A DNA stretch of 64,000 nt, taken from NCBI GenBank assembly GCA_903887775.1, contig CAISRB010000005.1:144773-208772 (forward strand), written 5' to 3'. The translations under genes and the position numbers were made by a program. Source of the stretch: an uncultured Bacteroidales bacterium (GTDB lineage Bacteria > Bacteroidota > Bacteroidia > Bacteroidales > FEN-979). Of this stretch, positions 26,922 through 30,546 are shown piece by piece. The notes beneath the pieces are model-generated. The model did not search any database. It had not been told where the DNA came from and saw only the letters and a list, made by a program, of their open reading frames with translations. Each line of letters begins with the position of its first letter. Position 1 is the stretch's first letter.

Positions 26922-27629
26922 ATGAAAGATAGCATCGTTCAATATAATAAAGAGTTATCAGGAACTGATCCGGACGGAGCGATAACGTATTTCAATACCC
27001 TTTTCCCGGGACGCTGTGTTTTTTCAACGAGTCTAGGGGCCGAAGACCAGGTCCTTACGGAGATTATTGCAGCTTCGGCCCCGTCGGTCCGCATAATTTC
27101 CCTTGATACAGGCAGGCTGTTTGAGGAAACATATGAACTTATCCGCATTACTGAACAGAAATACAATATTAAGATTGAAGTGTGTTTTCCTGATCATGTT
27201 TCTGTTGAAAGGATGGTTAATTCGAAAGGCATTAACCTGTTTTATGACAGTGTGGAAAACCGTAAGGAATGCTGCCATGTGCGTAAAATTGAACCATTGG
27301 GAAGGGCCCTGGATGGCATGAAAGCCTGGATCACAGGTTTGAGAAGAGAGCAGTCTTCCGACCGTGCCGGTATTGAAACAGTGAGTTGGGATGAAACACA
27401 TTCTGTATTAAAGCTGAACCCCCTGATCAACTGGACCGAACAGGAAGTCTGGTCAGTCATCAGGTCGAAAAAGATCCCGTACAACAGCCTTCATGACAAA
27501 GGATTTCCCAGCATCGGCTGCCTTCCATGCACAAGGGCCGTAATGCCGGGAGAGCATATCCGGGCAGGCCGTTGGTGGTGGGAAGACGGGTCGAAGAAAG
27601 AATGCGGACTTCATAACGATAAAAAATAA
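26922..27629 (+). CDS. cysH: Assimilatory adenylylsulfate (APS) reductase, CysH family
   Basis: A 235-residue reductase that turns activated sulfate into sulfite. PP-loop residues lie in STSLGAEDQV (35-44). It has two pairs of cysteines, Cys117-Cys118 (KECCHVRK) and Cys200-Cys203 (GCLPC), which is the [4Fe-4S] signature separating APS reductases from the cluster-free PAPS type. The catalytic Cys228 is in KKECGLH. Start chosen at ATG 26922, the family N-terminus being short. It is followed by six bases and then the ODP-type gene, so sulfate assimilation and the putative sensor are probably co-transcribed. No cysDN genes are in the window. Confidence 0.92.
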   Translation: MKDSIVQYNKELSGTDPDGAITYFNTLFPGRCVFSTSLGAEDQVLTEIIAASAPSVRIISLDTGRLFEETYELIRITEQKYNIKIEVCFPDHVSVERMVNSKGINLFYDSVENRKECCHVRKIEPLGRALDGMKAWITGLRREQSSDRAGIETVSWDETHSVLKLNPLINWTEQEVWSVIRSKKIPYNSLHDKGFPSIGCLPCTRAVMPGEHIRAGRWWWEDGSKKECGLHNDKK

Positions 27630-27635
27630 AGGACT

Positions 27636-28433
27636 ATGAGCAACACTGTCGACCTTGCTGAATTAAGCAGGACTTTTAATGAAAGGCTGGACTGCCCGAC
27701 ATTGCTGTACCATGAGGAACAACATGCCGTTTACTGGCTTGGCACTCCTGAAGATTCGGCATTCCGTTGCAACACTTACCTGATCACCGATGGTGACGAG
27801 ACAATTATTGTTGATCCGGGAGGAGCAGAGGTGTTTGATTTCATCAGGGGCAGGGTGGAGCAGATCACCGACCCCAAAACTGTTTCAGCCCAGATCCTTT
27901 GCCACCAGGATCCTGATGTTGCAGGGTCGATGGTAAAGTGGCTTGAAGTCAATCCCGGGATGAAAGTCATTACAAGTACCCGTACCAACGTACTCATTCC
28001 CCATTACGGAAGGGATAATTATGATTTCTTCAACATTACGGAATTTCCGCGCTATACGTTTTCTTCGGGACGCTGCCTGCGGTTCATTGAAGCCCCCTTC
28101 CTCCATTTTCCCGGTGCTTTTACCACTTATGATGAAACATCGGGATTCCTGTTCTCGGGCGACATCTGGGCGGCTATTGATATGGATTGGAACCTGGTAA
28201 TCAGCGACTTTCATGCACATGAATTTAAAATGAACCTTTTTCACCTTGATTATATGGCAGCTAATGCTGCTGCAAGGGGTTTTCTTGAACGTTTACACGG
28301 AATAACAATCAACGCAATTCTGCCCCAGCATGGATCAGTGATCCCTAAAGCCTTTATTGAAGATGCTTTCCGCTACCTCTACAATCTGCGTTGCGGGCTT
28401 GATATCCTTTATCCTGAGAAAAAGCGAAAATAA
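27636..28433 (+). CDS. ODP-type diiron metallo-beta-lactamase-fold protein
   Basis: A 265-residue soluble protein of the flavodiiron-like (ODP) branch of the metallo-beta-lactamase fold. The iron-ligand pattern is visible: His90-x-Asp92-x-Asp94 (CHQDPDVAG), His157 (LHFPG), Asp176 (FSGDIW) and His232 (LPQHGS). The normal Glu of HxExD is Asp here. There is no flavodoxin domain. Related ODPs bind oxygen at a diiron centre, and in Treponema one signals to a chemotaxis kinase. Here it is followed 25 bases later by a cytoplasmic hybrid kinase, so it is a strong candidate input sensor for oxygen, NO or a redox state. It could instead be an enzyme for reducing O2 or NO. Confidence 0.83.
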   Translation: MSNTVDLAELSRTFNERLDCPTLLYHEEQHAVYWLGTPEDSAFRCNTYLITDGDETIIVDPGGAEVFDFIRGRVEQITDPKTVSAQILCHQDPDVAGSMVKWLEVNPGMKVITSTRTNVLIPHYGRDNYDFFNITEFPRYTFSSGRCLRFIEAPFLHFPGAFTTYDETSGFLFSGDIWAAIDMDWNLVISDFHAHEFKMNLFHLDYMAANAAARGFLERLHGITINAILPQHGSVIPKAFIEDAFRYLYNLRCGLDILYPEKKRK

Positions 28434-28458
28434 TCAACATACTTAAAGCCCCAGCTCA

Positions 28459-30546
28459 ATGCAGGAAAATCTGAAAAAGCGAATACAGGCGCTTGAAGCC
28501 GAACTTAAAGTTGTCAGGCTTGCTTCGATGCAATGGGAAGAGATCCAGCGTATCTATCAGAAGTCAAATGATCGTCTTCAACAGATATACAGCCAGCTCA
28601 ATATGGTGAATGAACGCCTGACTCTTGCTTTTGAAGCGAGCCAGCTGAGCTGGTGGGACTGGGACTTCAAAAGCGGGAAACTGGAGTGCGGAGAGAATAT
28701 GGCATTACTGCTGGGACTCGATCAGGCAGCTTTACCTTTGTCTTTTTCTGCTTTTCTGGAATTTATCCACCCTGATGATGCAGTAGATGTAAAAGAAAAT
28801 CTTGACAAGCATCTCAATGGGAATACATCATTTTTTGAATCGGAATATCGTCTTAAAACCGGTTTGGGAGAATGGAAATGGGTGGTTAACAAAGGAAAGA
28901 TCGTCGAAAAAGATATTCTTGGCAAACCAACACGCCTTATTGGAGTGATAATGGATGTCGAAAGACGGAAAGTTCATGAGACAAACCTGCTTGCTGAATT
29001 TGAAAAAGCTGATGAGGCAAACAAGGCGAAAAGTTTCTTCCTGTCAAATATGGCACATGAGATATATACCCCTCTCTCGGGGGTAATAGGAATGGCTGAA
29101 ATTTTAAAGCAGTCCGAGCTTTCCCCGGAACAAAAGGAATTCCTTGAAATCATAGTGGATTCGTCTACAAACCTGCTTTCTGTATTCAATACCATCATGG
29201 ATTTCCTGAAGATCGAGGCGGATCAGATCGATTTATCAAACAACATTTTCAGCATTTTTGACCTGATGGAGGATTTGATTTCATCAATCATCCCTGAGGC
29301 GCAGGCAAAAGAACTGGAAGTGTCTTCTTTTATCGATCCGAATATACCGGTTCAGGTCAGGGGAGATGCTTCACGCTTGCAACAGGTGCTCAGGGTATTT
29401 GCTGACAACGGTATAAAATTCACCGAAAATGGCGGGATCACAATCTCGGCTTATTTTCTTTCCTGGGATGAGGATACTGTAAATCTGCAATTTAAAGTTA
29501 CCGATACAGGAATTGGCATATCTGATGAAGCCCTGAAACGCATCTTTACTTCGTTTACAAAGATAACCCCTTCCACGGGCAAATACGGAGGCAGCGGCCT
29601 GGGTCTTGCTATTGCGAAACATCTTATTTCAAAGATGAAAGGAGAAGTTCATGTGGAAAGCACTCCCGGAAAAGGGTCTTCATTTGTTTTTAATGTGCTG
29701 CTTGAAAAGGTTCCGGGTTCTGAACCCCTTGCCATTGATCCGAAGATCAGGGGACTTAAGGCAATAATCATTGATCCTTCCCCTGCCAGGGTAAGGATAA
29801 TGATGGATTATTTGAGCAGGATGGATTGTGAAGCCGAACATCTTGCCACCCTGACCGAAGGACTTCAGGAGATATCTCACCGGCATACCATTAACAGGCC
29901 GGCCGACCTCGTAATTGTCGAATATGAGGCTGCGAAACTGGCACAGGGATCATTTTCAACCAATGCGGCCTGGAAAGAGGTGCCCAGGATCCTGATGTAT
30001 TATCACGGAACGGATTTTCCCGACATGATAACCGGAATGGGATTCATCTACCTGTTGAAACGCCCCTTTCTCCCGTCTGAACTTTCAACAGCTATGCTGA
30101 ATGCAGTCACAAGAAAAGTACTCAAGCCTGTTACGGAAGGGGCCGGCCCGGTTCCGGGCAAGGCTGAAGGCAGGAAGCTCAGGATTTTACTTGCCGAGGA
30201 CAACCTTATCAGCCAGAAAGTTGCGAAGGTTACCCTGAGTAAGCTTGGTCACCAGACCGACATAGCTGAGAATGGTCAGATTGCAGTGGAAATGTTTAAA
30301 AATAACCAATATGACCTGATCCTGATGGACATCTTTATGCCGGAACAGGACGGGCTTGAAGCGACCAGGGAGATCAGGCGGGCTGAGCAGGCCAATCCTC
30401 AGGGAAAGGCTGTTCATATTTGCGCCATTACAGCCAATGCAGATGAAGAGGACGAGGAAAAATGCTACCAGGCAGGAGCTGACAGTTATATCACGAAACC
30501 ATTCAAGCTGGAAGAACTGATGGAAGTTCTTGACGGGATCCGTTAA
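28459..30546 (+). CDS. Cytosolic PAS hybrid histidine kinase with two receiver domains
   Basis: A 695-residue kinase without membrane helices. It has an N-terminal coiled coil (1-50), a PAS domain (about 55-170), HisKA with H-box MAHEIYTPL (phosphoacceptor His200; Tyr replaces the usual Arg), and HATPase_c with N-box DNGIKF and G-boxes DTGIGIS and GGSGLGLA. A degenerate receiver follows (about 430-550), in which the acceptor aspartate is Glu488, then an intact receiver (about 573-692) with the E580-D581 acidic pair, Asp624, Thr658 and Lys680. No DNA-binding output is fused, so a separate regulator or phosphotransfer protein must act downstream; none is adjacent. The upstream ODP gene probably supplies the signal. 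Confidence 0.9.
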   Translation: MQENLKKRIQALEAELKVVRLASMQWEEIQRIYQKSNDRLQQIYSQLNMVNERLTLAFEASQLSWWDWDFKSGKLECGENMALLLGLDQAALPLSFSAFLEFIHPDDAVDVKENLDKHLNGNTSFFESEYRLKTGLGEWKWVVNKGKIVEKDILGKPTRLIGVIMDVERRKVHETNLLAEFEKADEANKAKSFFLSNMAHEIYTPLSGVIGMAEILKQSELSPEQKEFLEIIVDSSTNLLSVFNTIMDFLKIEADQIDLSNNIFSIFDLMEDLISSIIPEAQAKELEVSSFIDPNIPVQVRGDASRLQQVLRVFADNGIKFTENGGITISAYFLSWDEDTVNLQFKVTDTGIGISDEALKRIFTSFTKITPSTGKYGGSGLGLAIAKHLISKMKGEVHVESTPGKGSSFVFNVLLEKVPGSEPLAIDPKIRGLKAIIIDPSPARVRIMMDYLSRMDCEAEHLATLTEGLQEISHRHTINRPADLVIVEYEAAKLAQGSFSTNAAWKEVPRILMYYHGTDFPDMITGMGFIYLLKRPFLPSELSTAMLNAVTRKVLKPVTEGAGPVPGKAEGRKLRILLAEDNLISQKVAKVTLSKLGHQTDIAENGQIAVEMFKNNQYDLILMDIFMPEQDGLEATREIRRAEQANPQGKAVHICAITANADEEDEEKCYQAGADSYITKPFKLEELMEVLDGIR

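Follow-up and report, generated by a model that had tools for sequence, protein, structure and literature searches.

A diiron ODP and a soluble hybrid histidine kinase form a co-inherited pair beside cysH in a Bacteroidales family, with a candidate docking helix shared with Campylobacterota signalling proteins

A window of 64,000 nucleotides of contig CAISRB010000005.1 (assembly GCA_903887775.1), from an uncultured Bacteroidales bacterium of the FEN-979 family, carries three genes in tandem on the + strand: cysH (26922-27629), a gene for a stand-alone diiron protein of the ODP family (27636-28433, 265 aa) and a gene for a soluble hybrid histidine kinase (28459-30546, 695 aa). Their frames, strands and intergenic gaps of 6 and 25 bases are exactly those given in a first-pass annotation of this DNA. 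We found that cysH is resident at this place, that the ODP and kinase genes next to it come and go together as a two-gene cassette, and that the kinase begins with a helix resembling that of the signalling proteins which adjoin related ODPs in Campylobacterota. Since the two genes are a co-inherited pair and the ODP is a genuine member of its family, the pair is best read as a cytosolic unit for O2/NO/redox sensing.

We surveyed 43 genomes of the family, in which the named relatives are metagenome-assembled genomes, and made the counts with the ODP protein itself as query because its Pfam family, PF19583, also matches flavodiiron proteins above the cut-off. Of these genomes, 28 have ODP, 25 have the kinase orthologue and 42 have cysH. 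The kinase always adjoins an ODP, occurring in 25 of the 28 genomes with an ODP and in 0 of the 15 without one (Fisher p 5e-9, without correction for phylogeny), so that the outcome named in the first-pass annotation as a refutation, ODP and kinase rarely adjoining in relatives, did not occur. About two dozen related genomes show this order of the three genes, with the N-terminal region of the kinase down to 36-48% identity, and the arrangement is therefore not due to chance. In nine ODP-less relatives cysH occupies the corresponding place without the pair, in the order Rho - Mur ligase - cysH - FtsX-like permease, cysH directly preceding the permease (Rho and the permease were named by reading the sequences). 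Within genera that otherwise carry them, ODP and kinase are jointly missing from four genomes (G163, G173, G184 and G186). Empty sites that keep cysH and the joint disappearance of both genes within genera establish the ODP-kinase pair as a cassette. One contig with this gene order (L012) is titled Alphaproteobacteria; its order and proteins are those of Bacteroidales, and the record or bin is probably mislabelled.

The first-pass annotation had tied its redox/O2/NO sensing unit to sulfur assimilation, and had asked if cysH recurs in the group. It does recur: cysH lies directly upstream in every family genome with an ODP where the contig reaches, mostly 3-17 bases away, and ODP and kinase are 9-39 bases apart in nearly every pair that was measured (exceptions: 78 in L068 and 143 in L058). 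Such short gaps make co-transcription of the three genes likely, but say little about function. A sulfur-assimilation circuit, in which ODP and kinase regulate CysH or are co-regulated with it, so that this oxygen-sensitive reductase is adjusted to O2 or NO, would fit this constant position, and would also fit the one clade that keeps cysH and ODP without the kinase. We nevertheless judge it improbable. cysH is equally present in ODP-less relatives, nine of which have it alone at the corresponding place; it is not among the neighbours of same-clade ODPs in Campylobacterota; and cysD/cysN of the source genome are on a different contig. In one genome (G168; L058, about 640-1470, + strand) a frameshift divides the cysH frame but ODP and kinase are whole, though this may be an assembly error. 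With cysH resident, missing beside the ODPs of the sister clade and on a different contig from cysD/cysN, the circuit is not supported, and of the earlier proposal the conserved, co-inherited ODP-kinase pair stands while the sulfur link falls. cysH is most likely just a resident neighbour of the cassette.

The protein encoded at 27636-28433 is a genuine ODP family member. It scores 202 bits against PF19583 (cut-off 27.2), and Pfam finds neither a flavodoxin domain nor any other, in agreement with the annotated lack of a flavin domain. All six ligands that had been listed for it (H90, D92, D94, H157, D176 and H232) are present, three of them in the HxDxD motif (HQDPD, 27903-27917, + strand). 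In an alignment of 36 ODPs, H90, Q91, D92 and D94 are invariant, as is Q231, the Gln of a PQHG motif, and the HDDHDH ligand set is retained in nearly all members compared. A sequence search of the PDB returned 6qrq and 6qnm. The AlphaFold model (mean pLDDT, the predicted local distance difference test score, 92) has as its top folds the ODPs 6qwo, 6r9n and 6qrq (Z 31-33), with Z 33.3 against 6qwo_A and Z 31.7 against 6r9n_A, the peroxo-diiron form (2.2 A over 232 residues). The nearest folds are thus ODP structures from Thermotoga maritima and Treponema denticola, among them peroxo, zinc and apo forms. Members of the chemotaxis subgroup adjoin a cytoplasmic chemoreceptor; here the neighbours are cysH and the hybrid kinase.

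This fold and these ligands are also those of the flavodiiron reductases. The diiron metallo-beta-lactamase fold of ROO, FprA and flavorubredoxin matches the ODP model at Z 25-29, and the upstream neighbour encodes a [4Fe-4S] enzyme. The ODP differs from these proteins in lacking the flavodoxin domain, in having Asp for Glu in the first motif and in its length (~265 vs ~400 aa). One could therefore picture the ODP as an enzyme, a flavin-less O2/NO scavenger or a hydrolase that shields CysH, with the kinase sensing through its own PAS domain and sharing only the operon; the clade that retains ODP without kinase would agree with this. We consider such a role unlikely, given that the protein has no flavin domain and that a true flavodiiron homologue of 414 aa is already encoded in the source genome. 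Moreover, the kinase was never seen without an ODP in the family, its N-terminal module is common to other ODP-adjacent signalling proteins, and fusions of ODP to GGDEF, receiver or kinase domains exist elsewhere.

Across the wider order, a close stand-alone ODP was found in 1 of 149 order-level Bacteroidales genomes, namely the source genome itself; the other matches were mainly flavodiiron proteins of ~400 aa. Close ODPs (53-60% identity to that of the window) are instead encoded in Campylobacterota (Sulfuricurvum, Sulfurimonas and others), where they directly precede GGDEF, GAF-HD-GYP-GGDEF or PAS-GGDEF-EAL proteins. In a maximum-likelihood tree, 26 Bacteroidales and 6 Campylobacterota ODPs make up one clade (98/98), inside which the Bacteroidales ODPs form one group (98/99). 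Plasmid spread of ODPs of the window's type was considered and rejected, plasmid records holding only distant ODPs (about 28-32% identity).

What the Bacteroidales kinases and these Campylobacterota partners have in common is their first ~55 residues, which follow the pattern M[SA]E[ED]L..[KR]I..LE....K......A..Q.......Y..S...L. Positions E3, L12, E13, Q25, W26 and L40 are invariant among the kinases, and L12 and Q25 are found in all 13 sequences. A profile built from the six Campylobacterota partners alone was run over the 43 whole Bacteroidales genomes: its top 20 places all coincide with the start of a kinase linked to an ODP (E 5e-7 to 0.013), the best other place has E 0.019, and 23 of the 25 kinases were recovered at E up to 10. 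Profile-profile comparison of kinase and partner helices with hhalign gave a probability of 96.7%. When the profile was made from the GGDEF and HD-GYP partners only and run over 4103 open frames, the GGDEF-EAL partners ranked first (E 3e-8 to 2e-5) and the ODP-partner kinase loci second, the first other sequence having E 0.34. The N-terminal module is thus both shared and specific.

In the kinase of the window this module covers residues 1-55 (28459-28623, + strand) and, from the profile searches and helix prediction, is a candidate ODP-docking helix; residues 2-60 are predicted to be a single helix running into the PAS domain. Over 19 orthologues its mean conservation is 0.69, against 0.63 for the PAS domain and 0.61 and 0.58 for the linkers. 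The helix might instead serve dimerisation alone, as a coiled-coil that moved with the 5' part of the downstream gene during transfer of ODP, and have no part in docking. The composition is indeed coiled-coil-like, and the helix sits at the 5' end of the gene that adjoins ODP, the place where it would remain if recombination followed a transfer. This seems to us a minority possibility, because specific positions are invariant, because the helix is better conserved than the PAS domain, and because no other coiled-coil in the 43 genomes outscores the 20 ODP-linked kinases. Judging from these sequence comparisons, the shared helix probably plugs the ODP sensor into different outputs. The stronger form of this idea, that the ~55-residue helix is a portable docking module through which one ODP clade of Bacteroidota and Campylobacterota serves at least four outputs (hybrid histidine kinase, diguanylate cyclase, GAF-HD-GYP-GGDEF and PAS-GGDEF-EAL), we favour by a little over an even chance.

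Downstream of the helix the kinase has a PAS_3 domain (28681-28950), HisKA (29026-29220), HATPase_c (29362-29703), a degenerate first receiver (29746-30093, boundaries approximate) and a canonical C-terminal Response_reg receiver (30184-30531), all on the + strand and assigned with Pfam, supplemented by alignment for HisKA and the receivers. The annotation of a soluble PAS kinase agrees with the PAS_3 match and with visual inspection of the sequence, which shows no evident transmembrane stretch. The phospho-acceptor His200 (29056-29058), the N and G boxes and the acceptor Asp624 (30328-30330) of the last receiver are conserved across the 19 orthologues. The two receivers annotated earlier are not equivalent: while the second is canonical, the first matches the receiver profile weakly, has lost one acidic residue of the N-terminal two and carries Glu488 where the phospho-acceptor would be, a position that is D or E among the 19 orthologues. 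By these sequence features it is a pseudo-receiver, and since Glu488 precludes the usual phosphorylation in this kinase, its role would be structural or regulatory. The H box (29056-29073) reads HEIYTP here, and HEIYTP or HEIFTP (or HDIYTP) in 19/19 orthologues, where HExRTP is usual. Three Hpt-family matches were found in the source genome, one of them within a frame of 116 aa.

We consider it reasonably probable, taking the explanation as a whole, that ODP senses O2, NO or iron state, docks on the kinase helix and controls a phosphorelay. By analogy with the T. denticola protein, we infer that the non-haem diiron site binds iron and O2 (possibly NO, or that it reports iron loading), and that the ODP would dock onto the N-terminal helix of a dimeric kinase. 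A change at the diiron site would then shift the register or packing of this helix, and the signal would pass through helix and PAS domain to the HisKA dimer. Autophosphorylation of His200 would be set by the state of the ODP, the direction of this control being part of the same proposal, and would be followed by phosphotransfer to Asp624 and, necessarily via a separate Hpt protein, to a downstream regulator whose gene lies elsewhere. The Campylobacterota would have this ODP-helix unit attached to enzymes of cyclic di-GMP (c-di-GMP) metabolism instead.

Several observations weigh against this mechanism. The reverse search, with the Bacteroidales helix profile over ten Campylobacterota genomes, recovers 2 of the 6 partners, both of them GGDEF-EAL proteins (E 8e-8 and 8e-6), so that these two proteins are what connects the kinases to the GGDEF and HD-GYP partners. 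The coiled-coil may be a dimerisation helix that makes no contact with ODP. An intact ODP without kinase is found in three genomes (G165, G169 and G171), in which the ODP may act alone; they form a single ODP clade, and hence probably represent one kinase-loss event. In two further genomes the ODP has lost ligands and the kinase is kept (H157P in G185; H90G and H157P in G174). Together with the three kinase-less genomes, these show that constraint on the pair is not uniform. The two ligand-lost ODPs adjoining a kinase lie at L094:4083-4868 (- strand) and L095:1685-2560 (+ strand).

Among known systems, the nearest is the ODP of T. denticola and T. maritima, which Muok and colleagues are said to have described in 2019 as an oxygen sensor for chemotaxis. 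The window's protein shares with it (6qnm, 6r9n, 6qrq, 6qwo) the PF19583 family, ~30% full-length identity, the fold and the HxDxD...H...D...H ligands, and both are stand-alone proteins encoded beside a signalling gene. The partner of the chemotaxis ODP is a cytoplasmic chemoreceptor acting on CheA, whereas here it is a soluble PAS hybrid histidine kinase carrying a conserved N-terminal helix. The Treponema ODP binds iron and O2 and works with cognate receptors in chemotaxis (PMC7666581, PMC6978683). Operons of ODP with other signal-transduction genes, and fusions to such domains, have been described as a class (PMC7319448); the likeness, an ODP adjoining a non-chemotaxis signalling gene, is exact, and the ODP-kinase cassette is therefore a variant of this class. 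The literature text that was searched, which represents earlier surveys at second hand, makes no mention of the Bacteroidales cassette, of the empty site beside cysH or of a helix common to the kinase and c-di-GMP partners. Compared to hybrid kinases of the BarA/TorS/ArcB type, the kinase has the same HisKA-HATPase-receiver core but scores far below the family cut-offs; it is soluble, lacks an Hpt domain, has a pseudo-receiver first and carries the ODP-linked helix.

As far as the searched literature shows, chemotaxis is the sole branch of ODP sensing studied biochemically. The locus adds a non-chemotaxis example, a small and soluble pair of sensor and kinase with a definite candidate for the interface, so that control of a kinase or of a c-di-GMP enzyme by a separate diiron subunit becomes testable by means of short peptides and point mutations. 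It further shows that one clade of sensors has exchanged its outputs between two phyla, and removes a misleading connection to sulfur.

Regarding the rest of the locus, a divergent Mur ligase resembling Mpl/MurC lies 5' of cysH, and a DUF1573 protein (Pfam) is encoded 3' of the kinase. No known RNA elements were found in the window, and sigma-70 promoters and terminators near the three genes did not exceed the counts in shuffled sequence. CysH matches PF01507 (E 6.7e-50) and TIGR02055, thioredoxin-dependent adenosine 5'-phosphosulfate (APS) reductase, at 267.6 bits (cut-off 235.3). Its cysteines follow the CC...CxxC pattern of the [4Fe-4S] type (Cys117/118 and Cys200/203, with a C-terminal Cys228). 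The earlier assignment to this type is borne out by both, and CysH is accordingly predicted to be a thioredoxin-dependent reductase of APS or 3'-phosphoadenosine 5'-phosphosulfate (PAPS) with [4Fe-4S] cysteines.

The more distant ODPs include fusions to GGDEF, kinase or receiver domains and proteins that adjoin receivers or a helical protein resembling methyl-accepting chemotaxis proteins. Given these fusions and varied signalling neighbours, ODP serves broadly as a general sensor that plugs into signalling proteins. Couplings to phosphorelays include an ODP-HisKA-HATPase fusion (L172:1040-2596, - strand), a run of receiver protein, ODP and PAS kinase (L149:2304-6012, + strand) and a receiver-ODP fusion (L101:5254-7014, + strand). 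In another Bacteroidota family, stand-alone ODPs are preceded by a conserved helical protein of 258-260 aa (L098:6637-7413, - strand; L099:4913-5692, + strand; L100:6440-7213, - strand). This upstream partner has no Pfam match and no significant sequence match in the PDB; its stretch ISLDLKLLAINGIVQAAKIG..QG resembles the signalling tip of chemoreceptors.

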